Position numbers and translations under genes: made by a program. A stretch of 64,000 bases of DNA. Origin: Rhizophlyctis rosea (lineage: Eukaryota; Chytridiomycota; Chytridiomycetes; Rhizophlyctidales; Rhizophlyctidaceae). The notes under the pieces were generated by a model that was not told the DNA's origin, did no database searches, and saw only the letters and a program-made list of their open reading frames with translations. Below, piece by piece: positions 30,249 through 54,295 of the stretch. The DNA lies in assembly GCA_027596075.1 (NCBI GenBank), contig JADGJC010000064.1:16600-80599 (forward strand), in the 5' to 3' direction. Position 1 is the first letter of the stretch, and every line of letters begins with the position of its first letter.

Positions 30249-31140
30249 CCTGTGTGAGTGTGGTGATGGGGAACGGAAAGAGGACCGGTGTGCGTCTGAG
30301 AGCGAGCCGAAACGAAGGGGAGGAGTTGAGAGGATCTGATAGGGGCTCAGGGTGGGGTGACAGCAGGGGAAGTCAAGGTAACATCTCCATTAGCGACTCC
30401 ATTTTACTAATTGGGCTTCGACAACCGCCACCTCCCCGTGGTGAAGCCTGGGTGGGAAGGTCTATCATCCCTTCCTGGCGAGGAGCGGTCTTCTTTTCAT
30501 AATTTCCTTCTTTCAAGTTTGACAGGACTCGGCAAGGCATAGCATAGTGTCGTGTAGTGTGTGTGACTCATGTAATATATGATATAAATATACAATCTTG
30601 ATAACAAATTTGGTGAAGGGAAGTTGCAGTTGTTGCATGTTGGTAGTTCTTTTCTTTGCGCTTCCAACTTTGAGGTTGGTCTTGTCCCACAGTAAGTTCA
30701 GCAGTCCGCTGTGAGAAACTTTGAAGCACACTGGCGCATCGACTTTACAAAGATGCTCACCACGTGTCCTTTCCCATGACCTGCCAGGTTTTGACGGGTG
30801 CACGACCCGCTTGTCGCAAGCCACATATAGACAATGTTCGGTGTACCCTCTCCTTTAGTAGGTTAGTGGTGTGGAAGCAGTATGGCGAATTTCGGGTGTC
30901 AGGCTGCGGACCGCTGGGTCTGCGGCGCCAATGCTTTCTCAAGTACTCTAGCTAACACCCTCATTCTGGTTTGTAAACAATAGACAGAGGGACCTTCTCC
31001 TCTCTCCAAAAGCCGACGCACCGTCCGCAGCATGTCATCCACAAACTCCATACGCCGCTCTTTATTGAAGAGGATTAAAATCATGTCCTGAACCCCCATC
31101 CCCACCGGCCACGAAATGCGCAGCACACTCAAAAGGATGC
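30249..31140. other. No supported gene
   Basis: Several open frames occur. One is an 82-codon plus-strand frame from 30254. Another is a minus-strand frame at 30899-31132, with a helix-like stretch MEFVDDMLRTVRRLLERGEG. I do not recognise either. The minus-strand frame may be the end of an unrelated gene. Confidence 0.25.
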
Positions 31141-31656
31141 GTCTAAACGTTCTTCCGACGGCCTTCCCGATAACGCGTCCGCTCCGTCCTCATCTACATC
31201 AAAATGCTCTCTGCGAGGCAAAGTGTGGAAGATCCTCCTGGGAGTATACAGACTCTCCGCGCTGGATTACATCACATTCATTGAAAGGGGCCGAGCGAAG
31301 TGTGGGACAAGATCAAAAACGATACGTTCAGAACGTTTGCGAAGGATGTGGAGTTCCACGAACGCGTTGGAGAGAGTGTCAGTGCGATTTTGCTGAATAG
31401 TTTTGTTTGGAAGGTCAAAGGTGGGCTGCTCCTTTGTATTGATGACCCGTGGGAACAAACCTTGAACCAAGTGGAAACCAACCTATGCAAATCTTCCCCT
31501 TCTCGCCTCCTAAACCCCAACTGCTCATACGTCCAAGGCATGAACGTACTTGCTGGACCATTCCTCTACGTCATGCCGGAACTCGACGCGTTCTACTCGT
31601 TCATGCAGTTCATACAATGCACATGTCCATTGCATGTGCAGCCGCAGTTGGAGGGC
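31141..31656 (+). pseudogene. BUB2: BUB2 (mitotic-exit TBC GAP) fragment
   Basis: Encodes the N-terminal half of a Bub2/Cdc16-type TBC domain: SDGLPDNASAPSSS, SLRGKVWKILLGVYRLSAL, DYITFIERG, KIKNDTFRTFAKDVEFHERV and, after an intron, YVQGMNVLAGPFLYVMPELD then CPLHVQPQLEG. The glutamine finger (YVQGM) is present. A one-base deletion within GGGGCCGAGC (about 31290) shifts the frame between FIERG and the KIKND block. The fragment stops at a good splice donor (GGC/gtacgt), and the rest of the TBC domain does not follow; PLK4 sequence begins about 230 bp later. As it stands it cannot make a working Bub2 GAP. Confidence 0.75.
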
Positions 31657-31888
31657 GTACGTTGTTGAGCTGAGGAAATTTGTGGTAGCCAACTGAAAAG
31701 CCGGCATATGAAATCCTTCGACGTCCCCGATGGCTGCAACAACGCCTTCATGTCTCAAACGATCACAATTCTAGAAGTGCTATTTAATCTGTCATACATA
31801 GTCAAAGTATGGGGAAATGGTAAGCCGAGAGCATACGACAGCTATACACAACACTCTCAAGTATTGAACTCATTATGGCGACAACCAG

Positions 31889-32710
31889 ATCGACAAAGGC
31901 TCAATGAAAGCAGCAAATATGACCCGTCGTGTAGCAAACGAGGTCGAAGTGCACTGGCAGCTACACCACCCGTCTATTTTGGAGCTCTTCAACTATTTCG
32001 AAGACGATGCGGATGTTTACATGGTCATGGAGTTGTGCAAGAACGGGGAGATGTATCGGTATATTCAACGTCGCGGACGCCCGCTGTCGGAGCCGGAAGC
32101 TCGTGGGATTATGACGCAACTGGTGCAAGGGATGTTGTACTTGCATTTCAGTGGGATCATTGTTCGGGACTTGGAATTATCCAACCTAATTTTCGCTCAG
32201 GATTTTGAGCTGGTGAGTTTATCGCATAGCCTTGACTATAGTGAAGCCCAATCCTCACATCGGAGATGCGATTCAGAAAATTGGCGATTTTGGGCTTGCT
32301 GTAAAGTTGAGCGATCCAGATGGGGAGCGAAAAACCATGTGTGGTACACACAATTACATTTCGCCGTGAGTATTGAGTGACTATCTCAATTCAGTCATAT
32401 TGTAGGTGCAATGCGGGCTAGGAATGTCTTTTAACTTCGACTATTGCAGCGAAATAGTCTCTCGACAGCCGTACGGTCTCATGTCTGATGTTTGGTCCCT
32501 TGGCTGCATGCTAGTGGTTATTTTGACCGGCACTCCACCTTTTGAGGTAGGCAGGCTTGCCTTGCTATTGATAAACAGGGTACATAACGTTGTGCGCAAC
32601 AGAGTCAGGCAGTCAGAAATACCCTTGAGAAGGTCTCACGAGTGGAATATCGGCTACCGAAAAACCTGTCGGATGAGGCGAAAGATTTGATTCACTAAAT
32701 GCTCCAAAAG
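31889..32710 (+). pseudogene. PLK4: Polo-like kinase 4 (SAK) catalytic-domain fragment
   Basis: Begins after a splice acceptor with IDKGSMKAANMTRRVANEVE, lacking the Gly-rich loop and the beta-3 lysine exon. Then VHWQLHHPSILELFNYFEDD, ELCKNGEMYRYIQRRGRPLS, and GMLYLHFSGIIVRDLELSN, where the catalytic HRD has become VRD. Later exons give [42 protein letters not shown] and [18 protein letters not shown] followed by TAA (32696-32698) and MLQK with a good donor. This is clearly the PLK4/SAK group, the centriole-duplication kinase, consistent with a flagellated organism. Missing N-lobe, HRD loss, an in-frame stop and no polo boxes make it a pseudogene or captured fragment. Confidence 0.8.
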
Positions 32711-35392
32711 GTGAGCGAGGGCCAAAGCATGCGCTTTGATATATGCCGCATTGCTTACACGTTCGGTGTGATAGGATTCCAGAAAACGTATCCTTTTGGA
32801 GGGTGTTTTGTACCATTCCTTTTTACGTGCGTTCTTATTGCGGTCAATTTGACGGGGGGCGAACACAATGGTAACTGGCTTTGCGGATCGGGTGGCGAAT
32901 GAGTTGTATTCGTTGGGTTGAATGGTGAGTGAGACTCTTTGTTGAGAATGTCCAATGAAATATAAAAATTCCAATGATGTTGACAATCCCCTTTCAGTGA
33001 CGGACAAATCACTTTTCTTTCTGGCGGAGAAGCTGCCGCAAATGCGTGTACTGCAGAGGTGGTTAATCTGTCGCGGCAGGCCTGAGTGCATTCCCTGAAC
33101 GATGTAGAATACCTAGAGCTCTTCCGCAGCGGGTTTTGGAGGGAAGGTTGTTGGTCGGTTCGTCGCTGTTTGCTGCTGGTACGGCTTTTTTCCTGTTTCG
33201 AACATGCTAAATTCGCTTTCATGTAACTTCCGCTTTCAACCAGCGTGCGGTAACGGTGACACGCACTTTGAGAGCGACGAAGACCTTGGTGATGTCGGGC
33301 TTGGAGGATGGGTGGGCAGCATGCACAGTGACGGCAGAGGAAAAATGCAATCGGGGAAGGAATGAATGGTGGAGGTGGTGGTATGGTTTGTCGATTCCCA
33401 CGGCTACGGCGCATCCATCCACACGACGCAGTCCCCACCTCCCATCCATAACGCATCACCTATGTCCTCCACGATTCGCCTTCCTCACAACCGTAACCTT
33501 GCCGACGCTCCTACCCCGTCCACATCATGTCCTGACGTGGCGAGGCATCCACCACCATCAGAGCTCTCAACAAGCTCCGAACCTTCCACATCGGACGTTT
33601 CCGCCGTGAAGAACTACGTCGATTGGTTCTACTGCCACCGTTTATGCACATACCCGACTTCTACTTCCAAAAACCCCATCGTCCCTCTACCGACCAACCA
33701 CGACTACTTCCCTGACGACAGACGCCTCCAGAAAACCTTCTGGGGATTTCGATCGATGGACTTGCTACGTTACGTACAAAGCTCTCTCCAGCCTTGCGTC
33801 CCGCCTCTTTCGATCACCACCACCACCATCACGATTACCTTCCAACACCATCTCGCACGCGCGTTTGAAGACTAATTACACGTTAGGTTCGCTGGGCTGG
33901 ATCTAGAAATAGGTGGTGGCGGTTCAGTATGGGAAGAACAAGGCCATGCCGTTATCCGAGACGGGCAAGGGGACTTTAGAATATCACTACCCATCGACCA
34001 CATCCGTTTCTCCTTCGCACCACCCGAACTACCTTACAACCACCCACCTACAACCCCACCGCGACCCGCTAGCCCACACCGCCATCTCCATTATAAACCC
34101 ATCCTGATGGACTTATCCATGCAAGTTCGATCCCGTAGCTCCTCCGCCGCCGAATACTACCACGCCGACGTGCTGCTCAAGCTGTACGGCAACAGTAACC
34201 TTTCTCGGCAGTCGCAGCAGCAGGTGTATCCAGCGTTGTGGCGCATGAGGAGAGGTTGCATGGCTTGAAGGCCGGGAGGGGTTTGGGGGATGTGGGTTTG
34301 GAGTCGGTGGTGGGTTGGATGTGGTCGATTTGTTGGGGTGTTGGTATTTCAGGCCGTGGAGAGAGGTGGAGCCGAGTGAATATGTGTGCGACTTTTGGTA
34401 TGTTGAGCTGACCGGCTGTTCGTGTTGCGGCTTTGCACTCTCGATCATTGCTCATTTCAGTCCTCTCGTCCCTCCATCACCAGCGTCCTACTACACTGCA
34501 CGCGTCTCTTCTTGCCTTTTCCTGCAACATACTACCTCCCTCTCGCTCCTCGAACCTGCACGCCCTACTTGCGACCGCAGCATAAACTCTCCACGCATAC
34601 CTGTGTCACCGTCGGAACGGTAGTGGAGGGAAACGGGAGGTTGGGAGGGTTGTGTGGGGTTTTTGAGAGGGATTGGTGGGCGGATTGGTGGGCGGGGGTG
34701 GGGATTTAACGGTGCGGGTATAGTTGAGTGGGTGTGGGATGCGGATTTTGGTGGAGCGGAATTGAGATATGTTGGATATTTAGGTTTAGAGTTGAATATT
34801 GAATGTTCGACGTGAATTGCACTTGCGCTCAGAGGGTTGTATGAAGGGGAAAGAAAGTCAGAGGATGCCCCATCAATCACTGATTAGATCATTAATAACA
34901 CTAAGGCACCAGTCCCACCATGTCACGTAAGCAAGTGGCTTAGACAACCTCATCATGACATCATGATCTTGCGGGTGTGTTTGGGTTTGTTGGTGGGGTG
35001 AAACCGGGAGAGACGGGTGAAGGGAATAGCTAAGCTGCTCCGAATTCTCCGCCTGTGGAGGTGATCCTGGTCGGGCCTAATAGGGGTAATAGCAAGATTA
35101 TCTCTGATCACCGTCACTCTTTGGCTCTAAACTGTCATCGCCACTTTCATCCTGATGATTGATGGGCATTGACAATTACCATACCTACCGCAGTGGGGAG
35201 TGGGGTGTCAGCTGATCGCGTGTGGGTCTGAGAAAATGATATAAGAGGGGGTCGAGAAAGAAGATCCCGTCTCATCTCACTTGCTTATTCTTTTTGCATA
35301 AATCCACATCGACCCACCTATACTATCTAACTGCATATATTAGATCCTCATCTTACATTGAAGCCCCACTAATCCTCCAACAAACTCGCACA
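32711..35392. other. Unresolved stretch, several long unrecognised frames
   Basis: From 33366 to 34107 plus-strand frames of 169 and 64 codons occur. They include DVSAVKNYVDWFYCHRLCTY and, in a shifted frame, GLDLEIGGGGSVWEEQGHAV then IRDGQGDFRISLPIDHIRFS. These look like pieces of one protein broken by frame changes, but I do not recognise it. The flanks (32711-33360 and 34120-35390) show nothing convincing. Confidence 0.3.
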
Positions 35393-38872: not shown

Positions 38873-39188
38873 ATGCAGACCAAGATTGATGGGAAGGATA
38901 TCGAAGAAAAGGGGAGCGATAGGCGATGGATATTGTCGAAACCATCGGTGTGGAGGCGGGGTTGCAATGACGATGTCCGAATCACAGATATGGAAGTTAT
39001 GGACCACGGGTGTCAGGAGGGCCACTCACAGCTTGCTCCCATTGATGAAGCACGGACAGTTCCAAAAATGACTTTAACACCCTCAACCTCCTCAACATTC
39101 TCATCCTCTTCCGGTCCCATATCTCACGCCTCTCCCACTTCTAAGCAACCCCGTCCCCACACCGGCATCCGGCGGAACATCACCACCG

Positions 39189-39430
39189 CACTTTGACGTC
39201 ATTCTGATGGACAATGGAATGCAGCGCATAAGGGGGCAGGAGTGCGTGGCGGAGCTTCAAAAAAGAGCAGTTATTACGCCTGTGGTGGGGATTACGGGAA
39301 TTGCGTTGAAGGAGGATGAAGTTCAATGAGGGCGGGAGCGAATTTGGTTATTTCGAAGCCGTTGGCGAAGGGGAAGTTGAAAAGGACTTTGAGGTTGATT
39401 CTGGTGGGGATGAGGAACCCCGGGTGGGGG
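39189..39430 (+). pseudogene. Response-regulator receiver-domain fragment
   Basis: Encodes the C-terminal two thirds of a REC domain: HFDVILMDNGMQRIRGQECV with the phospho-acceptor Asp (LMD), then AVITPVVGITGIALKEDE with the conserved Thr-type position (GITG), and, after a frame change near 39318, MRAGANLVISKPLAKGKLKR with the conserved Lys (SKPL). This arrangement is that of fungal hybrid histidine kinases. No histidine-kinase core is visible upstream, and the N gap with G/C runs follows at once, so the fragment may be truncated by assembly. Confidence 0.7.
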
Positions 39431-39461
39431 GCTACACGGCATGGGAGGCCGTGCAAGGGCC

Positions 39462-39584
39462 GGGGGGGGGGGGGGGGGGGATACCCCTAAAAGTTTNNNN
39501 NNNNNNGCGCGGGCCGCCCCCCCCCCCCCCGGGGGCCGCACCCCCCCCCCCCCCCCCCGCCCCCGCGGGCGGGGGGGGGGGGGC
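39462..39584. other. Assembly gap with G and C homopolymers
   Basis: A 19-G run (39462-39480), 10 Ns (39497-39506), then long C and G runs up to 39584. This is typical of poor-quality read ends or amplification artefacts, not biology. Sequence on the two sides may not be contiguous in the genome. Confidence 0.9.
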
Positions 39585-39988
39585 GCGGCCTACCCCTTCA
39601 CGTTTCGAGTTGCTCAAACTAAGCAGGTTCCACTGTGACGTATTCCCTAAAATCGGATCGCTGAACTTTGCACGTGCTATTAATTTGTGTCTGATCATGC
39701 AAAACATCGTGGAGGAACATAGAATGAACGACTATTTCATCACGGTCCTGCCGAGCGTTCAACGACTTTGTCGTCCAAGCTGAAAGCCTCCAGGATTGAC
39801 AGTTCTCACCCACCTCGACTTGGCAATCCGTCAATCTAATAATGCGGATGTAATGAATTCAAGATTTCCATACATGCAAGTATTCTGTGCATCATGCTTT
39901 TCATCCCATGGTTTGAGGTGTGGTGCACGAAAATTCGCAAAGGAACAGCAAGAAGAACTGAAGATGATGCAAATGCAAGACTATGAGA

Positions 39989-40711
39989 TGCAAATATGAG
40001 TTCTGTTGGATTTGCCAGGGGCCGTGGAAGAAGCATGGGACGCAGTGGTATAACTGCAATCGGTTTGATGAGAAGAGCAGCAATGATGCTGGGGATAGTC
40101 AGGCAAAGTCGAGGGCGGCGTTGGAACGGTATTTGCATGTAAGTGTCTGATTGCTGGGATAGGGTTGATGCACTTCATGAGTTTGGTGTTAAAGGGGGGG
40201 TTTTGCGACGATCTCGATCGACATCTCTTTCTGCATCATCGATCACTGACTGATACTGTTCGACCATTCTTTTCGAACTCAGTACTACAAGCGCTACGCC
40301 AACCACGAACAATCCGCCAAACTCGACAAAGACCTCTACGAAAAGACCGAAAAGAAAATGGAAGAAATGCAACTCAGCTCCAAGCTCTCCGGGATCGAAG
40401 TCCAGTTCGTCAAGAAATCCGTTGAAGTCCTCCTCGACGCGCGGACGATCCTCAAATGGACGTACCCGTTCGCGTACTACCTCAACCGGGACAACGTAAC
40501 TGCGATTTTCGAGGACAATCAGCGGGATTTGGAGATGGCGGTTGAGACTTTGAGCGAGTTGTTGGAGAAGCCTATTGATTCGGAGGGGGTTTGGGAGTGG
40601 AGGAGGGACGCAGTGGAGGGTGTTGGGTGTGTGTGTAGGAGGCTGGAGAGTTTGTGGGGGGTTGTTGAGAGGGGGTTTGAGGGGGGGCGGTGGAAATATA
40701 CGTTATGGTGA
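39989..40711 (+). pseudogene. ARI1: Ariadne-1-type RBR E3 ligase, C-terminal part only
   Basis: Two clean exons (39989-40138 and 40283-40711). The first gives CKYEFCWICQGPWKKHGTQW then YNCNRFDEK, the end of RING2 in an RBR ubiquitin ligase. The second gives the Ariadne domain: YYKRYANHEQSAKLDKDLYE, KTEKKMEEMQLSSKLSGIEV, LKWTYPFAYYLNRDNVTAIF, EDNQRDLEMAVETLSELLE. The normal stop is present. Upstream, where the rest of RING2 should be, a degenerate stretch (about 39925-39988) contains two stop codons, and RING1 and IBR are absent, as is the catalytic part of RING2. As read, it cannot be an active ligase. Confidence 0.75.
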
Positions 40712-40977
40712 TGGCGAGTGAAGCTCCGGTCATGGCGAAGAGCTAGATAGGCAATGTGGGACGGTGGGTGGAATGGAAGTGATAAGGAGAGGTGGGATTG
40801 GTAGAGCATGTACATAGCTCTTTGCACAATTGCAGAATACACACCGCACATCTTCGCACATCTTGCACAATATGACTTTGCGTACCATATCTGATGTGAG
40901 GTTTTCATCGGTGCGTCGCCGATAATCTCATTGCAGGAGCTTCATTCAGGAGGTCTCATGTATGATGGTCGATTCGA

Positions 40978-42754
40978 TCACCTTCCCATTCTTCCCCTCC
41001 TCCTGTAACATTCAGGCAACCCCCAAATGGCCCCAACCTCGAACATAAAAGGCTCAGTCTTAAGGGCACTTACCACTGTCGCAACACGGCCGAATAGATA
41101 CCTCCACTGCCCACTCCACCCACCAACACCAATCCCATGCTCCACTCCCACCAACCCCATCGAACTCTCATTCCTCATTCCTCTGATGCCCGTAACCCCC
41201 TCCTCTACCACTACTACCACCACCACCAAGACCCGACACCACCCCACCACTTCCATAACCCTGGGCAAAGCCCTTAAACTCCCCAACCGACCCCACAACC
41301 CCTGCTTCAAAGGCGAATGCGCCAAACTAGGTCCCATCACTCCCCCACCCGCTCCCGACCGATTAATTGATCCGAACCTTTCTCCCTACCCAGATCATAA
41401 GTTAGGGCCGTGGCGGTTGCTGCTATTGCTCCACTGCTGTCCATGCTGCGGAAGCAGCCGCGACTGGGTCATTCCCACACCACCATACACCATCGGGCCC
41501 GGGCTCTGTCGTTCGTTCCCCGGTCCCGGTCCCCGTCCCTGCACACTCGGCAACGACCTCCCAACCGCATAACCCCCAACACATCCCTGCTGCTGTGCCT
41601 GATACCCCACTCCTCACGCCCGGTCAAAAGTGTCATCCCATTGATGTTCTTTGACTTGCTCAAACGTATTCACTATGCTTGATATGATGGAATTTCTTTG
41701 GTTAGATGGTTGGACTCCACATCTAACATGCCACACCAGGCTGATGTTCGGTTGAGTAGTGTATATTGTTTTAAGTACTGTTGAGCGTTTCAGTTTGATA
41801 TGGATGGTTATTGTCTGAAGATTTATGTGCATGATGACGTATATATTTCTGGAAGGAGTCTTTGCTGTTCATCTAAATTTTCCGTCCTCTTCTGCATCTT
41901 GCTGGAGTCACGGAGGGTGTGAAGTTGCCTGAGAAATTGATGGCGTTGGCGATCGTATTCTGTAGAAAGAATTTCGTAAAACGGCATCGCACCAACTCGG
42001 CTTGAAGGAGCGCTTTCACACCCGGACACCATTCTGTTTCAACACCTCCATCGCCTCGAGCTCCTCTATGTACTTTGCGCGACTTCTTCACGTTGACGCT
42101 CGGTAATTCGCTAGCGAAGAAATGGTGAGATTAGTGCTCTGCCGTCATGTTGTTTCAAAATTTGTAAGTGGCACAGCAGGAATTGATCCTAACTACCTTC
42201 CGGTCTCTAGTTTTTGGACAATGTATGAAGTGCCGTGGGAATCACTTCCCATTTCTTCTTGGCGACCTCGTCTGCATTGGCTTCTTTGAAGAAATTGCAG
42301 GAGAGGCGGGAGCGCGAATGGTGCGGCTTGCGGTGTTGTTTCTAAGGTTGGGGAGCTGTGTTTGGGAAGGGTTGTGTCGCGGATGGAGGATGTGGGTGTG
42401 CGCTTGCAGTGATTTGGGGACCACCGTTCCCTTCGTTGGTGGAAATATATATGGACAGATGGCACGTGGAGGATGGAGGATGTAGTGCTGCGGAAGAAGG
42501 GCATTTGCTGTCGTTTTCTCCTCATGGAGCTGGATCGCTATTTCGTGGGTGCTGAAATTGTCTGGATGTCTTTCCCACTTTTCGTGGTGGGCGGGAGTGG
42601 GAGTCGGGGTCTCGGTCTCATGTTCTTCCGACGAGTTGGGTTCTGGGTGGAGGGCTGCTTGGATTTGAAGCGTCGTGTCGATATTTTGTGTTGGAGCCGA
42701 AGGGGGTTCGCTGTTGTATGTTTCTCCCGGGTTAGGATCAACGTTTCGTGACAA
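40978..42754 (-). other. Possible minus-strand gene, unrecognised, low-complexity ends
   Basis: Coding-like minus-strand pieces. 42242-42754 starts MSRNVDPNPGETYNSEPPSA and is Pro/Thr-rich. 41823-42091 has a charged helical stretch (YEILSTEYDRQRHQFLRQLH). 41395-41610 is Gln/Gly/Pro-rich (GPMVYGGVGMTQSRLLPQHG). 41100-41270 contains QGYGSGGVVSGLGGGGSS in one frame. They could be exons of one RNA-binding-type protein. I could not join them, and no domain is recognisable. Confidence 0.3.
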
Positions 42755-43751
42755 GCGATGAGTTTATGTATTGTTATGGAATTCAGGAAATTGCAAATGG
42801 GAACTCAATCTCCCGGCTGACCGCAAGCAAAGTATTGTCCATATTCGGCTAGATTGTGGTCCGTTTACTTGGTCTCATTCTATAACGGGCGGGCTCTTCT
42901 AGGTGGACTTCTCGGAAAAGTCACATGATAGAGAGGACAAGATGGTGGAGCTTGGTAACCTAATCTTTGCTCTGCTTGGAAAACAACAAAGTCCACAATC
43001 TCTTTCTGTGTCGACTGCCGCTGTCAATGCCTGGGATTATGCAAACTGAGCTCAATTAATTACTTAATCCTGCCCATGTTGTAGAAATAGAGAACAACGT
43101 CGAGGAAGTGTATCGGAAGCGTCTGCCAGGGACCCGTGAATGCTTATCAGAGGATGTCAAGCCTTGTGCGGCGAATCCAGATGCCTTGTCAATGTTCTGG
43201 CACTTGAAGTCTTCGAGACGTCCTGGCCACGGTGTGTTGGCGGGTTCTGGCCCTGGCGGTAGGTGCCTTCTTTACTTTGGTGATATTGTAAACAAAGCAG
43301 TGAAGAACTCATCCCGGTGTCAGTTTTCGACGCACTCACACCATTTAACTCAATAGAAAGACCTCTCTCAAACATAATGGGAATATCTGCCTGGGTGGAC
43401 GAAGAGGCAGTCAGGCAAAGTCGTCGCATCGGTGGGGTCGATACTGCTATAGCGTATGTGTTATCATGATATCGGACCCTTATCTTTCACGCTTCTCATG
43501 ATGGCTCGAATCAACAGACCTTATTTTCGCACTCATCTAAACATGAAGTTAATCTACACCCATGATCTCGACACGAAGCCCTATGCGATCTTCATCTTCA
43601 AGTACGGAAGTCGTGGTAAGGCTTTCGTATCATAATGCCCGGCGCAAGCGTCGCTTTTCATGACATCCAAAATCAGAACTACTCCAAGCGTAAAACATCC
43701 TAAAAACTACGGACACGGATCCCATGGACACATAGGTCGTTTTCAAAAGCA
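42755..43751. other. Unresolved stretch with unknown plus-strand exon-like pieces
   Basis: Frames include ALSMFWHLKSSRRPGHGVLA (43180), IERPLSNIMGISAWVDEEAV then RQSRRIGGVDTAIA followed by a good donor (43370-43455), and MKLIYTHDLDTKPYAIFIFK then YGSR (43540-43615). The last is reminiscent of the fungal DUF7918 core. They look like further exon fragments from different genes, but none is secure. Confidence 0.3.
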
Positions 43752-44040
43752 AAGCGTGCTTATAAGGGTGTTGGTCGCCGGTACGCCAACCTTGTGTGCT
43801 GCAGCCCGATATTGATCTCAGCATGCGGTGAGTTGTATTTCCGTTCATGATTCAACACATGGTGCTACCGAAAGGTGTCGTGATTGAAGTGCTAACAGCA
43901 TGCTTTCGTTGACAGTGCTGGTGAGCTCACCAACGAAGAGCTCGAACGCATCGTCACCATCATGCAGAACCATCGCCAGTACAAGATCCCCGACTGGTCC
44001 TCGACAGGCAGAAGCAACCGTAACGGTCAAGATTCATATA
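43752..44040 (+). pseudogene. RPS18: Ribosomal protein S18 (uS13) fragment
   Basis: Two exon remnants around an intron. The first, 43752-43827, gives KRAYKGVGRRYANLVC and, after a frame change, PDIDLSMR up to a splice donor. The second, from 43916, gives [20 protein letters not shown] then QYKIPDW. After TGG one T seems lost, so the expected FLxRQK reads as SSTGRS and a stop follows. The normal C-terminal third (tRNA-contact region) is missing. Introns are retained, so it is not a retro-copy. The encoded pieces are very close to typical uS13. Confidence 0.8.
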
Positions 44041-44130
44041 TTTAGGTGTGTTCAAACACAGAGAAATACAAAACCACCCTTGTGCCATTCGTCGAGTTTC
44101 AACTGACCCAACCATTACAGGTTTGCTGTC

Positions 44131-44492
44131 TCACCACCAGGTGTCATGGTCGGTATGGGTGAAAAGGACTCTTACGTTAGTGCAGAAGCTCAATCCAAGC
44201 GTGGTATCTTGGCCTTGGTATGTAGAAATCGGCAGAATATGTTGTGAAATCGGCGTTGATAAGACTTTTGGGTGATGTTAACATATGTCGCTCTCATAGA
44301 AATACCCCATTGAGCACGGTATCGTTACCAACTGGGAGGACATGGAGAAGATCTGATTCTGGTGGGTTTTCGCTGTGGGTAACATTTTTGAAGAACTTCG
44401 GGAATTGAGAAATTGTTATTGAATCTTTCCTATCCAATTTTCATGTCTTCAGGCACCGCACCGTCTATAACGAACTTCGTGTTGCCCCCAAG
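44131..44492 (+). pseudogene. ACT1: Actin fragment 1 (residues about 38-100)
   Basis: Begins at HQ, then [20 protein letters not shown] and GILAL up to a donor at 44218. The next exon, 44300 onward, gives KYPIEHGIVTNWEDMEKI followed by TGA in place of the invariant Trp codon. The last piece gives HRTVYNELRVAPK and TAG. These are successive, normally contiguous parts of actin subdomain 2. The rest of actin does not follow; ARPC2 sequence starts 10 bp later. Introns are retained, which argues against retrotransposition. Confidence 0.85.
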
Positions 44493-44502
44493 TAGGGGAT
44501 GC

Positions 44503-45237
44503 GAAAAACTCGTAATGAACATCGCCGACTTCGACGGCGTCACATACCGCGTTTCAACTCCCGACAGCAAATCCGTCCTCCACATCTCTATGGCTCTCAA
44601 ATGCTAATCAGAAGTCCAACAGTACGGAGCTGACGACGTCTTGAGGCGCGTATATGGGGAGAACTTGGTGGATCCTGAAAGCGGATATGATGTGACGATC
44701 AGGATTGATCAGGAGAATTTGGCGGTGGATGGCGGTGGGTTTGGTGGACTTGCCATGCTGTTGATGTTGTGGGAGAAGTCAAGGCTGATGTTGAAATAAT
44801 GTCTGCAGACAACTTGATTTGCACGTCGCTTTCTCAAACGCAACGCGCTCGCGGCGCTTTTCGAGGCGGCATTTAAAGCTCAAACGGAGGGTCAGGACAC
44901 TTAGCTGATGACTGCACAACTGGGAGCAGCAAGCGTACTGCATTAAGGCGCAGCATTACCGTGGGACTGTCATCTTCTCTACGGTGTTCAAAGAAGAAAC
45001 AGGCAGGATTTTCGGCTAGGTCTTCTTGCAGGTCGGTAGGAGGTTACCGGGTTTTCAAAGTTGCGATGTGCGAAATCTTACCCTGGATGATACGATTACA
45101 GGAATTCGTAGATGCGCGTCGCCCTTTCACCCTTCAAAATGAGCCCCAAGTCTTGTACAGCCCTCGTGAACCGCCACTGGAACTTCGGGGCGTTCCTGGG
45201 TTACAAGATTCAGAGGACATCGCGTACGTCACCCCCA
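44503..45237 (+). pseudogene. ARPC2: ARPC2 (Arp2/3 complex 34-kDa subunit), decayed copy
   Basis: Reads VMNIADFDGVTYRVSTPDSK, SVLHISMALKC then TAA, then QQYGADDVLRRVYGENLVDP and ESGYDVTIRIDQENLA. After an intron it reads FLKRNALAALFEAAFKAQTE with a TAG soon after. Then GTVIFSTVFKEETGRIFG, TAG, VFLQ, an intron, and EFVDARRPFTLQNEPQVLYS, PREPPLELRGVPGLQDSED, IAYVT. That covers roughly the first two thirds of ARPC2 in order. At least three nonsense codons and missing segments (part of the loop before GTVIF, all of the C-terminal helix region) make it non-functional. Introns are kept. Confidence 0.85.
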
Positions 45238-45295
45238 CGTCATCCTCCGTCTCGACCTCGCCGGCCGCGACTTAACCGACTACTCAATTAAGATA
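45233..45295 (+). pseudogene. ACT1: Actin fragment 2 (21 codons)
   Basis: Encodes PHVILRLDLAGRDLTDYSIK then I, matching the actin segment near residues 172-192 almost residue for residue. It begins inside the ARPC2 remnant's last codons in another frame and runs straight into CDC27 sequence with no spacer. Confidence 0.8.
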
Positions 45296-45630
45296 CGCAA
45301 TATCTGCGCATCTTGCTTGTGGCATCTGAAGAAAGAATACAAGTTTTCTGCACTGGCCAAGGATATGGAGGCGCTGGTCATACTGGCGCCATAGTCGTGG
45401 TGCGTCATCGGGAACTTGTATAGGTATGTATTTCCGACATTCTGCAAATGATTCCGCGTTGACGCTTTCAAAGCTTGAAACAGGAACACCAAACCGCCAT
45501 CCGATGCATCGCCCGAGCAATGCAGCTCGACTCATACTACGATTACGCATACACGCTATTGGGACACGAATTCATGGCGGTCGAAGACCTGGAGCAGGCG
45601 AAACAATATTTTATGAAGGCGAATCCGTAG
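45296..45630 (+). pseudogene. CDC27: CDC27/APC3 TPR fragment
   Basis: Reads CLWHLKKEYKFSALAKDMEA, LVILAP, TAG in place of the expected Glu codon, SWCVIGNLYR, a GT-AG intron (about 45422-45470), then LKQEHQTAIRCIARAMQLDS, YYDYAYTLLGHEFMAVEDLE and QAKQYFMKANP with TAG. This is the central TPR array of the anaphase-promoting-complex subunit Cdc27. Only about two and a half TPR repeats are present. It continues in the same frame from the actin fragment. Confidence 0.8.
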
Positions 45631-46208
45631 TCCATCATGTGCGGCTATGACTCGACCATCTATGTTGTACTGAAGGACGGAGAGGTGCAAGTGTGGGACG
45701 TGAGGGGGTTGGCTCTTGTGGTGAGTAATGTGTGTCAGAGCAGTTGTATATTGGTGAGGAGGGAAATGATGTTGGTGCGGGGTGAATGGGTGACTGGATG
45801 GGTCAATGGGTCAACGACCAGTTGAAGAGGATTGGGACTGTGCATGATGAACGGCTGTTGGAGGAGTGTTGCTGGAATCATTTCACTCGATGCATACGTA
45901 TGGTCAGCTTGCTATATGAAATCATTTTGACAAATGCTGATTGCCAATCTCGCTCCGCCACGCATAGGCTGCGAAAGAGCCCACCGGGACTTGTCAAATC
46001 CCTTCCACCCGATCATGGACTTCCTGCCAAACCCGGACACATTCCCAACAATATGGACTGCCTTGGACGCTTCCGGCGCCATACACCTCGGGGAAGGTGA
46101 GGAGCAAATCCGCACAATTACGCTCATAAAGTGACATCAAGTGCGTATGTGGTTCTACGTCCATACTCCTCATACTGTCTTCGTGCGACTGACTCATTTC
46201 CATTGCAG

Positions 46209-46535
46209 TCTGCTGGAGCCTCAAAAGCAAACAGCTGGTCTGCGGGACGGAAGAAGGACGACTCATCCAAGTCACACCGGAAGGCACGATTAAACGACAT
46301 CATTCAAGCGCCTCCGTCATTGGAGCGTCCCGAGTTTCGAGGTAATTGATCCCATCCCATCACCTTAAGCGTACACGTAATGATGGGTTTTGAATCGCTA
46401 ACAACAAACGTCCATTCCAGCGAAAAGCATAGCATGGGTGGAAAACACCGTCTGGATCGTTTGCTACGTGATGTCAGTGAACGGCGACGACGAGGTTCGG
46501 AGACTTACGTTATTTCGCAGGAAGGGACGCCCGTG
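46209..46535 (+). pseudogene. Nup159/Nup214-like beta-propeller fragment
   Basis: Exon-like pieces: CWSLKSKQLVCGTEEGRLIQ then VTPEGTIKRH, a frame change, IQAPPSLERPEFR to a donor (46340), and from about 46423 AKSIAWVENTVWIVCYVMSV with, in a shifted frame, TYVISQEGTP. The pattern WSxKxKQLxxGxxxGxxxQxxPE followed by a PP block and a WVxN-type strand is that of the N-terminal propeller of the Nup159/Nup214 mRNA-export nucleoporin. Frame changes make it non-functional. The identification rests on pattern memory and is moderate. Confidence 0.45.
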
Positions 46536-46998
46536 AGTTGAGCGGTTCTGACTCGATTCCTTTTTTGCTGTGTTGTAAGACTAACTGTTTGGTGATGATG
46601 GCCGTGAACGCATAGAAAAAGACCGTTTATTACTGGGTAGGACAACCGAGCTACCCATCGGCGCCGCGGGAAGCACATCATTCCTTTGGTCTTTTGAAAG
46701 GGTGGTGGGTATTTCGCTTTAAGATCAGGAGGTCGATTGGGTTCCCTGAGGACTGTTATTGGAAGACCTCTCTCTGGGTTGGCTCTGGATTTCTCTGTCC
46801 GCATTTTATTGAATCCTGTCCTCACTCTCCCCATTTACCAAACAGGACCCACTCCAAACCACATTTGCATCATCACCGACCCACGCTCCGAAGATTCCGC
46901 CAATCGCAGCTATTTACATCGATATCAGCATTGGTGAGTTGGCCTTACTTTGGCTGACATTTCATTCAACGAGGAATACTTATTTCCTCAAATGGTCA

Positions 46999-47800
46999 GG
47001 TGATGGTGTTGAGTCTATGAGCACGTACTACGGTCCCGGTGCTATCCGACCGATCTACCACCTGAGATTTTGAACTGCGGTCCTGCGGCCGATGTGTACG
47101 TATTTGCCTTCGCGTAACTTGTCTCAGCTTGGTAGACTCAATTCGCTTTAGCAGTTTGGATCACTATGGGACAAACGTCACAAAACGTTGCGGCGGAGTT
47201 CCGGATCAGTCGCGAGGGAGCAGGACAAGTTCGCATTGCGCTCGCATAACCTCGCTGCCAAAGCCTAGCAGGAAGGGCTTTCTGAAAAGAGATTGTGCCT
47301 GTGACGTTGCCCGATGGTACTGTTGTTACAATGGATGATGGGATCCGTTGGACCACCTTGGAGAACCTGGCGAAGTTGAGGCCCGCGTTCGGCGAGAAGG
47401 GCACAACTACTGCCGGAAATGCATCGTATAAAACGGATGGAGCTGCCAGTGGTATGTTCGTTGCATTGTACCTGTTTTAACTGATGATCGTAAGTGGTAA
47501 CCTTGACTCTCGTTACAGTCCTTCTCATGCGTCGTAGAACTGCTGAGAAGCTTGGTTACCATCCTTTGGCATGCTGGCTCGGATTCTCAGTCATCGTTTC
47601 CCTCCCCGCATTATGGGTATTGGTCCCGAGAAGGCCATTCCGGCCGTCTTGAAACGAGTCGGGTTGTCTCTCAAAGCGAGGTTGCCGTCTTCGAAATCAA
47701 CTAAGCATTCGCTTCTCAGGCGTCGCGCTGTGTGAACAAGTTGGGCATTTCTTATGAGGAGGTTAACCCGAAGGGAGGCGCTATTGCTTTTTGACACCCG
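46999..47800 (+). pseudogene. POT1: Peroxisomal 3-ketoacyl-CoA thiolase, decayed copy
   Basis: In order: [128 protein letters not shown], and ASQASRCVNKLGISYEEVNP then KGGAIAF followed by TGA where Gly is expected before HP. These follow thiolase from mid-protein to the second active-site region. The reading frame changes several times, and the NEAF and C-terminal catalytic Cys segments are lost. The N-terminal part with the first catalytic Cys is not recognisable upstream, although 46,900-46,930 may be a trace. Confidence 0.8.
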
Positions 47801-49278
47801 AGCCCCAACCCACTTCCTTGGCCTCGCCTTCGACCTTCGCAGCGAGGACACTCTCCAAGCCACGAGTGAGGACGATCCGGTTATTCAGCCGGGACCAATT
47901 GAGTGGGTTAGGGGTGGTTGGTCGGGTACTATTAATTGGATGAGGAGAGGGTTGTTGGTTGGGAGGGGTGGGAGGGGAGTGTGAAGTGTGGAGTGGTGCC
48001 GCGGGGGAGGGTGTTGATTTTGTGAGTAGTTTGATGCTGCTGGGCTTGTGGGCGGCTGGAGTGCAGTGGTGTTAGACGCCATTCAAAAGTCGCAGTTAGT
48101 CGTCAAAGACGTGGGAAGACATCTCTTTTGGACAACCATATTTTGTAAGAGCGTAACGCTCTTTGTTCTTCGTACCCGATCTTCGCACCCGATCTTTCTG
48201 GAGCAAGTGCATTTCACAACGATATCCAAAACAATTGCGCAAGTGAAAAGGTGTGGGTGCACTGGCTGCCGGCCGTGCGGGATTTATTATAGTGAGGGAA
48301 ACCCACCAAACCTCACTTTCTATGATACAAAAAAGTTTATAGTACACTAATCCATGGGATTACAAGTGTCCCAGACATTGAGTAAATGGAAGCACATGAG
48401 TCCCATATACTACACTAAATGGGGCTGACTAGAGGAGCCCCTCGACCTCGAATGCGCAGATGTGCCCGTGGGAGAGAGAGCGAAAGCAAGAAAGACAAGA
48501 AAAGGACAGAGAAATGCTCCGGAAGATCCACACCGCGCTCGGACAAAGAGCCACAAAACGCCCTCACGTTCCACACCAAAAAGGTGTGAAGCTCAAAGGG
48601 ACTAGCCGTGCGTGGTTCACCAGTCGATAGGCGGACTTCCGCCCTCGGTGCTGGCTTGCAACGTCGGTGGAGTGCCCAGTCCGGCCCGTTCCACAACCAT
48701 TTTGTATTGCAAGGGAAGGGGGGTCTATGACTACGTTATATGGTTGTGGGGGAACCGGTCCGTGAATTCGTCGAGGCGCATGAGCTCTTTGTGGGTGGGA
48801 TCTTGAAGCAGGTGTGAAGCTTGAGAAGAAGGAGGGTGAAGGAAGTGGATCTTGTTGGGTGGACTGTGGATGGTCTTATGCGATTTGATTGGCATGGGCT
48901 TGTTCGCAAGCCACAGTAGGGCCGGTCCAAGTGGGTTCCCGATGACGTGGTTTCGGACAAATATATAACTAAATTTGGACAAAGTGCTTTCATTCTGGGC
49001 AAGACTGTGCCCGCTCGCGCAGCCATGCTAATTTCCAAATTCAGACCAATGGTAGACGTCGAAATTGGACAGTGCCACCATCTGCTTGGAAGGATCCTTA
49101 AGGCCCCTCCTGCAGCTTTGGAGGACTTTCCCATTCCCACGCTCAGATGAAATTCTGGAGGTCCTACAAACTCAACCGTCCGTCGCACTCGTGCAATAGG
49201 GGGAGCCCCGATGCTGGTGGCCGAACGTTTGACAACTACTGTTCTATGTAGAATTGCTCCTTGGAATCCCTTTACAAA
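47801..49278. other. Unresolved stretch; one minus-strand coding-like frame
   Basis: 48731-48982 on the minus strand reads LSKFSYIFVRNHVIGNPLGP, ALLWLANKPMPIKSHKTIHS, then RLDEFTDRFPHNHIT, which looks like real protein but is not recognised. The remainder (47801-48700) has no supported gene. Confidence 0.3.
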
Positions 49279-50720
49279 ATGACGTCGAGTCCCACCCCCC
49301 CAAACAAATCGTCACCGCCTCGACCCACCCATCATCTACATGTGCTCCCTAAAGCCAGTGCCAGCGTCGAGGACTCCCGGCGCTTGTCAAAACTACACCT
49401 GGGCTATTCAACCATGGACGAAACACTCGGTGGCGCCATTTATCACTTTGCAAAGCCGCCTAGTGACCAGGTCCTCTCCAATCTAATGAAGTTTTACACC
49501 CTTTCTCCAATCACGTCAAAGGAATGTGCAGACCTATTATCTGCAAAAGAAGAAGTCCGGTCAGTCTCCAAAAAAATGCCACAGATTGATGAACATTATG
49601 CTCAAGATGATAGCTCTGTTTGCCTGACCATCCTCACACCATCTCAGACGGAATATAAACAAAACTCCGACGCTGCCCGCTACAACTCCCTCACATATCT
49701 CCACTTCCCAACCGTCAAAGCCCCTCTCCCAATCATCACAACCCAATGCAAAGTCTCCTATCTCCCCAACCTCCAATCCCGTACTTCTCCGTCCAATCAA
49801 CACCACCTACGAACTTGCTGGACACACCGATACCGTAACGTGCATGGAATATGACCTTTCCAAATCGCTCCCCGTGACCGCATCCTTCGACTCCTCCATC
49901 CGCGTCTGGAATACTGGGTCTGGTGAATGTGTCGGGATCTTCCGGGGTCACACCAGAGGTATCAGAGGTTTAAGTCTTCAGGGCGGCGAACTGGTGTCTG
50001 CCTCATCAGATGGCGATCTGAAGTTCTGGGATTTGACAAGTATGACTTGTACCCGTACGGTGCGTGGACTGGGAAGGGGGATGATGTGTGTTGATAGGAA
50101 GGGCGGTATTGTGGCGGCTGGAGGCGCGGGCGGGGTTATCGGCGTGTGGAATTTGGGAACTTATATGAGGCACACGTGGGAGGGTCATAAGAATGTGTTA
50201 ATGGAATTCAAGTAATGGGTGATAAAATGGCGATCAGCTGCTCCGATGACGGATATGTGACGTCGTGGGATCTGGATTCCAGAGAGGGGTTGAGGAAGTT
50301 GAGGGCGCATGAGGGGCCAATTTGCGCCTTCGTCGTCGTAAATCCGGGTACACGGTTACCGCATCCAACGTTTTTCAGAAGACTACATCGGATTACTCTA
50401 CTCCTTCCCCTACTAGAAGCTTATCACCGCCAGCGCAGACGGTACGGCAAAGATCTGGGATGCTGACGGACGCCTGCTGTTGACGCTGCAGCATCAAACT
50501 GCAGTTTTGTGTGTTGCAGGGGATTTGCGGAGGGTTGTGACTGGATGTGAGGATGCGAAGGTTTGGGTTTGGGATGCGTTGAGTGGGAATTTGTTATGTA
50601 GAGTTGGTGGAGCGGACGAAGGAGGTAGCGTGTATTCTTGTGCTTTGGATGGGGAGAACGTGTTTTGCGGGGGTGATGGGGGAGTTGTTAAGTGTATTCA
50701 TATTGTTTCGGCCATCGCGA
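49279..50720 (+). CDS. WD40-repeat protein, frameshifted
   Basis: Starts MTSSPTPPNKSSPPRPTHHL. An N-terminal region of about 130 residues has no recognised domain. A likely 41-nt intron (ACC/gtcaaa to gcaaag/TCT) leads into the repeats: INTTYELAGHTDTVTCMEYD, FDSSIRVWNTGSGECVGIFR, SASSDGDLKFWDLTSMTCTR, GGVIGVWNLGTYMRHTWEGHK. A one-base loss near 50185 shifts the frame, and the next repeats are in another frame: AISCSDDGYVTSWDLDSREG, KLITASADGTAKIWDADGRL (after an intron), VTGCEDAKVWVWDALSGNLL. About seven blades, as in F-box/WD or similar adaptors. There is no stop after the last blade; the frame continues into the RRM sequence that follows. Confidence 0.65.
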
Positions 50721-50767
50721 ACAACCCAACCTCCTCAACTCCCTCCACACCTTCCTCCCGCTCCGAC

Positions 50768-52726
50768 ATCCAACTCGATCCCAAAAACCTCTACATCAAA
50801 AACCTAGAACCCCACATCGACGACAACCTCCTCTCCGACATGTTCTCCTCCTTCGGCCGTATCACCTCGGCGCGCATCATGAGGGATGATACCACTGGGC
50901 GGAGCAAAGGGTTCGGATTCATCTCGTTCGAGAGTTCCGATCAGGCCGCGAGGGCGTTGAGGGAGATGAACGGGAAGCGGGTTTGGGAGCAAGAACTTGG
51001 TGGTCAACATAGCGGAGCCGAAGAGTTATCGGGCGAAAAGGATTGGTGAGGGTCTTGGGGTGAGGGTGTTTGATGGGGATTTTGAGGGGTGGGAGGAGGA
51101 GGGGAGTGATGGGGTGGGGGAGTGGGACGAGGATGAGCAGCAGGATTTGGAGGAGTTGTCGAATTTGAGGATTCTGTCTGGGGAGATTGACGAGGCGTTG
51201 GGGGTTTTGAGGAGGGGTGTGGAGGGATTGGTGCGGAGGAGGAGGAAGAGGAGGAGGAGGGCAAAGGATGTGGGTGTTGGTAGCCATGATCGGAAGCAGC
51301 AACAAATGCATGGCGAAACATCCAACACCTGCACACCACCCACCCCCATCACCACTCCCGCCCACACCACCACCTTTTCCCTCCCCCACGTGCGTTCCTC
51401 CGAGAACTCACCGAAACATTCCAAGTCTCCTGCACATTCATCGAATGGAACTTCACGGAGTGCTTTGCTGCATGGCGGTATTCTGACAACGGAGTTTGGG
51501 CAGGAGCGGAGGGTTGAGGATCGGAAACGGTTGGAGGAGATTTTGATGATGAAGATTGCAAGGGAGAAGGCTATTTTGGAAAGGGCTGATGCGGCGAGTA
51601 GGCCCGTGCCGACGGTGTCTGGGGGGAGGGGAGTTGTTGTTGAGAGGATGGCTGGTGGGAGTGATGGTGTTGCTGCTGGTGGTGGTGTGGGGAGGGTGGG
51701 GGCTTACACGACGGCGGCGGCGCGAACGGAAGAAGAGAAACGGCAGGCGAGGCGGTTGAGGTTCGGTGCTCCTCGAACCAGATCTGACACGAACGGACGC
51801 GGTGAGACGTGAATGGTGAGGCTAGTGCGAGGAGTGTTAGGAGGGTTGTTGGGGCTTTGGCGGAGGATCCGACACAAGAAAGTGGACACACCTCAAACCA
51901 ACACTCGTCACCATCCCCGACACCCTCATCTCCAGCCTATTCCCCACCGACATCCCATCCAAACTCCCCATCCGCATCCCCTCCCTACTCACCCACCCAA
52001 TCCGCCTACTCCCCGGCATACTCCTCTCCCTCCTCACCACAAATGCCGCCTCGCCACGAACGTCCTGCAAAGACCACTCATACAACGGGAGCGTCTACTG
52101 AAGCAAACGATAACGGCGGTCGAGACTGTGCGGTACCCGGCGGTGTTGGTGGCATGACGGGAGTTGGTGCTGTCGGGAGGCGTCTGAGTATTGGGAGTGC
52201 GGGGAGTTTGAGGGTTTTGGAGGGGAAGGAAAGCCGGTTGGAGGCTTTGCAGGATCGGATGCGGGTGTTGAAGGAAGGTGGTGGGAGTCAGAGTGGGAGT
52301 AATGTTGGTGATGTGGATGATCCGGCGGGGTTGGGAGTTGTGCCGCCGGGGTATGGGGGTATTGATGGTGTTGGTGGAGGGGGTAGATATGGATTTCCGT
52401 GGGTTGAGCAGAGGCAGCAAGGGGTTTTGAGGGAGTGGGATGGGGGTGGTGGGGAGTGGGCTGATGGTGAAGGGGGCCGATATGGATACGGTGGGGTTTA
52501 CGGTGGGTTCGGAGGGTTCTTTGGAGAAGGGGATGGGTGGAGTGGCGGCTCTGGGGGGTTGGGGTACGGAGGGTCCGGTGCGGGGGACCAAGGTGAGGAG
52601 TACATTCCTCGTGCTGGGGGAGGTCGGGATGGGTCGGTTGGTGGGTTGGTTGGTAGGGGAGGGTCAGGCCGTGGGATGAGGCCGGCGAGGCAGAAGAGGG
52701 GGTTTGATGGGATTTTGCTGAGGTAA
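50768..52726 (+). CDS. RRM protein with basic and YSP-rich tail, frame-disrupted
   Basis: One RRM close to the fourth RRM of poly(A)-binding protein: NLYIKNLEPHIDDNLLSDMF (RNP2), then RSKGFGFISFES (RNP1), REMNGKRV. After a one-base insertion at about 50978 it continues SKNLVVNIAEPKSYRAKR. Next come an acidic helix (DEDEQQDLEELSNLRILSGE), a basic patch (RRRRKRRRR), a helix (RKRLEEILMMKIAREKAILE), and, after a second frame change near 51808, a region rich in YSP (PYSPTQSAYSPAYSSPSSPQ) and a Gly/Tyr-rich tail ending FDGILLR. It has no in-frame ATG of its own before the RRM; the frame is continuous with the WD40 sequence. PABP-like RNA binding is inferred. Confidence 0.55.
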
Positions 52727-53209
52727 TATGGTGCGAGAGGTGGCTGGGATGTTTGGCAAGGAGGCGCTTGTCCAACGAATTGTACGTTTGCAATATGAAA
52801 CCAAAGCTGTAATATAACGCTCTTGAAACCCTTTCCCCTGATATTTGAGTCAAGCGTTTGCATATTGGTAGCCATGATTTCGCTTGTGAGTGCCAGTGTG
52901 CGTTTCGAAGTTCCAGAGAAGTATTTCCAAAGACTGTGAATGATTTACGAGGACCTTACGAATGGCCATCATATGTCAGTTTCAGTCGGACGGTGTCGTC
53001 TTCGTGTGGCATGTCAGCACTATGTTTAGATAGTACCGACATTCAGTACTGTTCTATTCTTCCAGATTTCGATGCTCCGGTGAACTTCCACTGTCAGTTC
53101 TCAACATCAGGTTTATTAATTTCATCGCGAACATACGGTATTTGGAGCATCTCCCTCCTCTCCTCTCTTACATCTTACACCACCTCTCTTCGCAGTAGCC
53201 ATTACTAGT
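52727..53209. other. No gene recognised
   Basis: About 480 bp between the RRM gene and the retroelement. No LTR, primer-binding site or polypurine tract was recognised. Confidence 0.3.
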
Positions 53210-54295
53210 GTACCCTGCACTTACCACATCTGCCAAAAGACGAAACCGTCGAACCAATTCCAAATCTGCTGCAACAATCCTTATTACTTCCAGATGTAAG
53301 CCTTCAGTCAGTCCACCTTGACTGGGTAGGACCTTTCGCCACGATCATCTAAGGCTATGATACCATCTGCGTTTATGCCTATGTTGATGGAAAATCTGGC
53401 TTCACCGTGCTGGTCTCCCCACCACTCACAACTCCACCGCCAAAATCAACCGCCAAAGCCTTCCTTCAACACCCGTATGGATCATTCGGCTTCCCCAAGC
53501 AAGTAATCAGTGATGAAGCCTGCCGCTTCCTATCCGACTTCTTCGACAAATTCAAGGAAGCTGCTCAAGTCCGACACCCCATCGCCACCACGAGACCACC
53601 AATGGTCTCGCGGAGGTTCAAGTCAAGCGCACCAAACACATTCTTCATTCGTGGCTCCCCAAGATGTCCAGCCAAGGGCCCTGGGTCTACTTTCTTCCAC
53701 ATGTCAAATTCGTCATCAACTCCGTCGTTCACTTCAGCATCAGATTGTCGCCCTTCCAAATCATTTCTGGACAGCGACCCCACCCCAACTTCCTCCCCCG
53801 CCATCGACGAACTTTGTGAACTTTTCGTCCATCAAGAGAACCACGCCTTCAAAGAACACTTGAAGACCTGCGTCCGTCCAAATCAACAATGCAAACACCA
53901 ACGTCAACACCCGAACGTTCCAAGTGGCAGATTTGGGTACACCTCCGCAAATCAAAACTTCCGCAGTCCCTGTAACCTTTCCCATCAAACCAAGTCGCTC
54001 CTCGATCTACACAGGGCCCTTGCGCTGTCATCAAAATACTCCCGGCAACACCTACGGACTCGATCTACCAGCAACATCCAACGGGCACAACGCCTCCAAA
54101 TCACCTGAGGCCTTGCCGCGGATCGGAGGATACACTTTTCCCTTCGCTCATTCCCGCTGAACTAGCCAGTCCTCCACTCACACTGGTTCCGTCGAAAGCC
54201 TGAGTACCTCATCAAGTGAAAAGGCTACTACACTCCCACGAGTGGGAACTCGCGGACCGAATCCACCCGGACCTCCACGCTCCTTTCCATCCCGA
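53210..54295 (+). mobile_element. Ty3/gypsy integrase with chromodomain, degenerate
   Basis: Begins with the end of the zinc-binding region (CHICQKTKPSNQ-like), then a core with HLDWVGPF followed by a stop, FPKQVISDEACRFLSDFFDK, VKFVINSVVHFSIRLSPFQI, ISGQRPHPNF, then a YGLDLPA-type C-domain. A chromodomain piece follows: KPEYLIK, TGA for Trp, KGYY, and in a shifted frame EWELADRIHPD. An integrase ending in a chromodomain defines the chromovirus branch of Ty3/gypsy, common in fungi. Stops and frame changes show it is long dead. No LTR is visible. Confidence 0.75.

Follow-up and report, generated by a model that had tools for sequence, protein, structure and literature searches.

The chytrid Rhizophlyctis rosea, whose genome comprises 44,103,614 bases in 634 contigs, carries on contig C566 a mosaic of pieces copied from unrelated genes. 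We studied this mosaic within a window of 64,000 nucleotides (C566:16600-80599), in which a first-pass annotation had described pieces of RPS18, actin, ARPC2, actin again, CDC27, a Nup159/Nup214-like gene and thiolase between positions 43752 and 47800. Parents were sought by searching the whole genome with the segments 43752-47800 (4,049 bases), 28000-43760 and 47780-64000, followed by realignment, and are named from the candidate matches listed. The claimed order and plus strand hold from the start of RPS18 at 43764 to the end of thiolase at 47800, and the pieces of each unrelated gene match a separate locus on another contig, with 75-90% identity and E values from 1e-14 (second actin piece, 63 bp) to 5e-267. 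The 4-kb mosaic is present, but it is part of a larger one that extends over about 31.1-51.0 kb and amounts to 19 non-repeat pieces from 18 parent contigs, two of them from far-apart parts of C6. Several distant donors were copied while the donors themselves were kept, and the pieces are, as had been described, duplicated, decayed, intron-bearing and internal to their genes, with parents elsewhere in the genome. The segments 29737-30514 and 48252-48624 (repeat-like), a 47-bp low-complexity match at 39510, and the segments 58333-59584 and 60515-61071 stand outside all counts.

Pieces of the mosaic in window coordinates, with parent locus and percentage identity to the parent
Piece	Position	Strand	Gene	Parent	Identity (%)	Remarks
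B	31091..31675	+	RabGAP-TBC	C535, L010	87	right end at apparent parental 5' splice site
C	31687..31815	+	actin-related	C559, L026	83	begins at likely 3' splice site
D	31815..32824	+	protein kinase	C534, L009	85	4 introns kept; interrupts C
C2	32839..32912	+	as C	C559	93	resumes 168 bp downstream
E	32997..33144	+	LRR-type (Pfam matches under cut-off)	C182, L024	80	
F	33248..33546	+	unnamed	C37, L012	82	genic by open frame only
G	33550..33790	+	unnamed, 461-codon open frame	C224, L019	82	interrupts F
F2	33788..34403	+	as F	C37	79	resumes 7 bp downstream
H	34413..34663	+	unnamed	C57, L023	75	sense from frame length only
I	39055..39401	+	histidine kinase / response regulator	C41, L015	78	
K	39985..40771	+	Ariadne-type	C291, L011	80	1 intron kept; ends ~24 bp beyond stop codon
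L	41122..41536	-	low-complexity	C461, L018	75	strand uncertain: antisense by the more protein-like frame, other frame longer
M	42234..42757	-		C612, L013	74	antisense from frame length only
N	43377..43753	+	DUF7918	C53, L021	70	2 introns kept
O	43764..44031	+	RPS18	C67, L008	75	1 intron kept
P	44130..44495	+	actin	C301, L007	77	2 introns kept
Q	44502..45233	+	ARPC2	C181, L002	88	2 introns kept; interrupts P
P2	45232..45294	+	as P			resumes 295 bp downstream, at 3' splice site
R	45300..45620	+	TPR gene	C6, L006	90	1 intron kept
S	45619..46902	+	Nup159/214-like	C354, L004	75-79	5 introns kept
T	46898..47800	+	thiolase	C32, L003	82	second locus C59, 80%; 3 introns kept; interrupts S; ends at parental 5' splice site
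S2	47804..48002	+	as S		70	resumes 88 bp downstream
V	50783..51032	+	RRM	C6:91770, L036	83	adjoins WD40-coding sequence

The identity of the parents is supported by the Pfam domains P34-Arc, Actin, Thiolase_N/C and Ribosomal_S13, and by TPR repeats in a neighbouring exon of the parent of R, which we take to be CDC27-like. The parent of S scored 25.7 bits against NUP159_NUP214, under the Pfam cut-off of 29.6. Likewise, we take the parent of C and C2 to be Arp4-like and the kinase parent of D to be PLK4-like. The matched exons of the parents read open as peptides, and a complete gene model was available for ARPC2 only (P0001), in which case three exon peptides all lie within the R. rosea protein HDV00_005394, whereas the other R. 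rosea protein (HK097) differs.

Most of the pieces are packed into two dense stretches, 31091-34663 and 43377-48002, where they cover 93% of 8,199 bases and leave unassigned gaps of 3-103 bp; an interval of 237 bp within S corresponds to a diverged intron region. Of the 16 boundaries in these stretches, 13 abut, ranging from an overlap of 5 bp to a gap of 14 bp. Four genes are left and then resumed, namely the Arp4-like gene around the kinase, the C37 gene around the C224 gene, actin around ARPC2 and the Nup gene around thiolase, and all four returns are forward in the parent. At the right edge of the mosaic, WD40-coding frames at 49844-51032 continue into piece V, whose reading frame seems to be broken towards its end.

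The coding strand of each parent was judged from open frames and, in most cases, from Pfam matches as well. All 14 pieces of the dense stretches are sense on the plus strand (two-sided p = 1.2e-4), or 13 of 13 when H is left out (p = 2.4e-4). The claim that all pieces lie on one strand is accurate for 43752-47800 and gives way to 17 sense pieces out of 19 over the whole mosaic (p = 7e-4), with I, K and V adding to the sense ones. Read by eye in the dense-stretch pieces other than B, E, F, G and H, introns lying wholly inside a piece were kept in 20 of 20 cases, and K adds one more. With none of the 20 introns removed, the earlier conclusion that introns are retained is confirmed and processed retrocopies are rejected. 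An intergenic source was identified for none of the 19 pieces, five of which (F, G, H, L and M) count as genic solely from their open frames.

Decay was counted in 20 piece segments compared with their parents, H, L and M being left out. The frequent stops and indels noted before are clearly present, with 19 stop codons and 97 indels in exons, 81 of them frameshifting, and with 506 exonic transitions as opposed to 328 transversions. First, second and third codon positions diverged by 9.3, 8.5 and 18.0%, respectively, and non-coding sites by 22%. Such a pattern is what a functionless copy shows as it decays, the changes retained in its parent being mostly silent; it is not what sequencing error produces. 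For the core set of pieces N-T, that is 43752-47800 plus the left neighbour N, divergence at codon positions 1 and 2 was 7.1% (135/1901) and homogeneous among the pieces (chi-square 0.90, 6 degrees of freedom, p = 0.99), and the same was found for O-T alone (122/1741, p = 0.99). In none of the four nested pairs was the insert significantly younger than its host: host and insert divergences were 6.1 and 6.4% for actin/ARPC2 and 7.4 and 7.3% for Nup/thiolase (Fisher p = 1.0 in both cases), 9.0 and 6.5% for Arp4-like/kinase (p = 0.41), and 12.9 and 8.1% for C37/C224 (p = 0.10).

Tentatively, we propose that the mosaic stems from one burst of DNA synthesis that switched among unspliced, transcribed gene templates of sense polarity, an origin that we consider quite possible, if somewhat short of probable. 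A single synthesis event, repeatedly switching template, would have built the mosaic by leaving one gene, copying another and at times returning to the first slightly downstream, and its product would have been joined in at the locus, functionless and decaying since. The templates may have been the displaced sense strands of transcription bubbles or R-loops or, alternatively, nascent pre-mRNA copied by a reverse-transcribing polymerase. A chain of switches during a single synthesis, on templates of fixed polarity, would yield pieces of shared strand and age, with some genes left and re-entered. Retention of introns speaks for the displaced sense DNA strand as template, and piece ends at splice sites speak for unspliced RNA. 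Nine of the 26 ends at the 13 abutting joins (B right, C left and right, D left, F2 right, Q left and right, P2 left and T right) lie at most 10 bp from a parental splice site, against an expectation of 2.8 given 40 splice sites over 7,884 bases of parental sequence (p = 0.001). The enrichment of piece ends near parental splice sites is suggestive, and the statement that most pieces end at good splice sites was too strong.

Several observations weigh against a single burst on such templates. Ends near splice sites were counted by eye, following a hint in the first-pass annotation, and the background density, taken from introns inside pieces only, is maybe too low; moreover, only ARPC2 has an annotated protein that confirms the sites, and short unalignable intron stubs can mimic an excess. 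For an RNA template, the absence of any splicing among 20 introns is unexpected. Pieces L and M look antisense, both assignments being weak and that of L doubtful, and three of the 16 boundaries (C2/E, E/F and O/P) hold 84-103 unassigned bases in place of a clean join, although those at O/P may be a diverged actin intron. No excess of microhomology was found at the 13 joins, where the longest shared runs sum to 26 and 26.0 were expected (p = 0.54); a gapped reading by eye suggests a longer shared run at the N/O join, with no excess overall. This runs counter to microhomology-driven switching, which predicts such an excess, and misfits the standard account of microhomology-mediated break-induced replication (MMBIR); it is compatible with end-to-end jumps. 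The copying of several distant, retained donors does agree with an MMBIR or FoSTeS template-switch product. Uniform as the core is, all 17 divergence groups, with S2 taken apart from S, are heterogeneous (p = 1e-5), and no significant heterogeneity is left in the 15 groups without F and S2 (p = 0.23). S and S2, which belong to one gene and one insertion, differ nevertheless (7.4 versus 20%, p = 1e-4), which we interpret to mean that fast-evolving parents inflate divergence; this suggests that the overall heterogeneity reflects fast-changing parents. A set of 11 pieces labelled 'conserved' (7.1%, p = 0.995) was picked after the values were known and is not used as a test. Two of the four hosts diverge more than their inserts, in the direction that nested insertion predicts, although the difference is not significant. 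Simulated power was limited: an age spread of 0.1-1 of the maximum was caught in 91% of trials, of 0.3-1 in 67% and of 0.5-1 in 32%. Finally, the genome search gave no match for the 4.4 kb at 34.66-39.05 kb, where a 228-codon open frame fits no Pfam family, and with this gap in between, 31-34.7 kb and 39-51 kb may have arisen in separate events.

Successive repairs of double-strand breaks in a region that tolerates them, each filled with a copied or captured gene fragment (templated insertion or filler DNA), would explain the nested pieces as insertions into older ones, and we regard such a history as rather unlikely. It fits the nesting itself, with 7-295 bp of the host missing at each insertion, the joins, which resemble plain end joining in their lack of excess microhomology, and the tendency of two hosts towards greater divergence. 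In yeast and human cells, fragile or R-loop regions are a frequent source of inserted DNA (PMC11724301), and templated insertions in yeast draw on R-loop and fragile sites, according to the passages on donor regions in PMC11724301 and PMC10802722. However, independent insertions are expected in either direction and graded in age, whereas 14 of 14 dense-stretch pieces share one strand, hosts and inserts do not differ significantly in age, and no intergenic source was identified. Capture of the fragments by a DNA transposon, either a Helitron or a Pack-TIR element, whose ends have decayed or are unrecognised, had been put forward in the first-pass annotation, and it appears improbable to us. In maize, Helitrons accumulate pieces of several genes one step at a time (PMC3288121), and fungal Helitrons carry captured genes (PMC4289320), as described in the parts of these papers that deal with capture; a dispersed repeat also lies at 48252, 250 bp to the right of S2. 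The core pieces, however, share one divergence rather than graded ages, which, together with inserts that are not significantly younger, argues against stepwise Helitron or Pack-type capture within the limited power of the comparison. No vehicle was found by searches for longer inverted repeats and for the Helitron_like_N domain. Inverted repeats of at least 22 nt, the length sought, gave eight pairs between 28 and 56 kb, of which six lie in a poly-G tract at 39.4-39.6 kb, one is a local palindrome at 43.9 kb, and the eighth (24 nt, 83%, 42587/51342) does not flank the mosaic, so that the proposed check for terminal inverted repeats found no flanking pair at that length; Helitron ends (5' TC, 3' CTRR) were not searched. 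The domain Helitron_like_N (PF14214) had no match in the genome, a weak negative as prokaryotic control genomes also gave none, and among the matches listed none spans a join.

A chimeric retrocopy, made by a retrotransposon that copied spliced or partly spliced RNA and switched between templates, would account for the one strand and the genic sources, and seems very unlikely. Chimeras of the long interspersed element LINE-1 with mRNAs are mostly sense (15/17) and show recurrent splice sites at their junctions, according to the relevant sections of PMC13174262, and reverse transcriptase genes exist in the genome (12 RVT_1 matches, 10 above cut-off). Against this stand the retention of all 20 placed introns and the 13 joins themselves, at which no poly(A) was visible by eye; no retroelement was recognised inside the mosaic, where no systematic search was made. 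An assembly or amplification artefact that joined unrelated molecules is extremely improbable. In its favour, a 10-base N gap at 39497-39506 lies inside the wider mosaic, outside 43752-47800. An artefact of present genes would give near-identity and random error would ignore codon position, and neither fits pieces with 70-93% identity to their parents, stops, frameshifts, an excess of transitions and codon-position-dependent divergence. An assembly chimera is rejected on these figures, and the amplification chimera offered as an alternative fails on decay and codon-dependent divergence.

Gene fragments also occur elsewhere in the genome, from which it follows that the process is not unique to the mosaic locus. 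A second small mosaic on C627 (L086 844-1813) consists of a piece of a ubiquitin-conjugating-enzyme gene (parent C79) followed by an RPS18 piece; both assessed pieces are sense on the same strand with introns present, which speaks for the proposed origin, and a third match there is to C168 (72%). At codon positions 1 and 2 the two pieces differ from their parents at 6/116 and 6/160 sites (p = 0.095 versus the core). A further RPS18 fragment of 106 bp was matched on C622. From the window itself, 305 bp of an RSE1-family (SF3B3-like) gene at 19811-20115 are copied to C179 (L064 1501-1805) with 95% identity, and this lone fragment, a point in favour of successive repairs, is younger than the core (6/202, p = 0.025). 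The process was probably not a single moment in the history of the genome. The copy on C179 starts close to a likely exon start and shows no clear target duplication by eye. Positions 3572-3973 (402 bp) match C487:3848-4255 with 89% identity, a match that is not shown to be genic and in which donor and copy are not told apart. Over 29 kb of flank, these two dispersed copies were found together with one 46-bp match. At about 90 kb of C566 (L080 9482-9899) there are two short matches, to C442 (87%) and C312 (76%).

Some repeats lie near the mosaic. The dispersed repeat at 48252-48330, about 80 bp long, has 23 or more further matches across the genome, shows two stems that look possible by eye and matches no Rfam family; known RNA families gave no match at the gathering score in the window, with one chance-level match near 48318. 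As an element end this repeat found no support, with about 80 bp conserved between unrelated flanks and in either orientation. To the left of the mosaic, 107-bp inverted copies at 26674-26780 and 28688-28794, about 98% identical, bound 2.1 kb that are likely an element with terminal inverted repeats, although no clear target duplication was seen by eye. The repeat-like segment 29737-30514 contains a duplication spaced by 211-212 bp and is related to C511 (71%) and partly to C581, C312 and C390. At 53407-54965, frames resemble retroelement remains by eye, and no Pfam family was found in the two frames tried.

Exon shuffling and the origin of new chimeric genes require that intron-bearing pieces of unrelated genes are brought together in one direction. 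The usual suspects are transposons that gather pieces singly, whereas equal divergence of the core pieces, one strand and kept introns point to a one-step route. With at least one further case in the genome, this route is open to statistical testing. Going beyond this locus, a chytrid mutational process may exist that copies unspliced transcribed segments in sense, hops among sites of nascent transcription, stalls at splice sites and leaves strand-coherent multi-gene mosaics in single events, a generalisation that we put forward as speculative and on balance unlikely. Such a process, if real, would generate chimeric exon arrays in bursts, by a route other than transposon capture or mRNA retrocopying.

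No report of such mosaics in a chytrid was found in a literature search, a weak negative as most subscription papers were outside its reach, and the pertinent passages of the comparison literature on Helitrons, templated insertions, chromoanasynthesis and LINE-1 chimeras contain no strand-coherent, intron-keeping, multi-donor mosaic. With the Helitrons of maize and fungi (PMC3288121, PMC4289320), in the passages on gene capture, the mosaic shares unrelated gene pieces that stand side by side and were copied while the parents stayed; unlike Helitrons it shows, in what were weak tests, no element ends, Rep/helicase or repeated copies, and it has a single core divergence in place of stepwise ages. 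The passages concerned of a further Helitron paper (PMC2575219) say nothing on the strand of captured fragments. Gene movement by filler DNA in grasses (PMC3445842), in the corresponding passages, does not include end-to-end arrays of many donors on one strand. LINE-1 insertions that are chimeric with mRNAs resemble the mosaic in sense bias and junctional splice sites, as far as the passages on junctions in PMC13174262 go, and differ from it in having a retroelement part, splicing and a tail, none of which was recognised here. In human chromoanasynthesis, many donors are strung together in either orientation (PMC13065848), according to that paper's account of the joins, and what the mosaic has in common with templated insertions, MMBIR and chromoanasynthesis (PMC11724301, PMC13065848) is the joining of distant donors in a row by copying, in yeast from R-loop donors. 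Whereas the cases described in those passages use both orientations, the mosaic of R. rosea is nearly one-stranded, lacks a microhomology excess, includes introns and is fixed in the genome.

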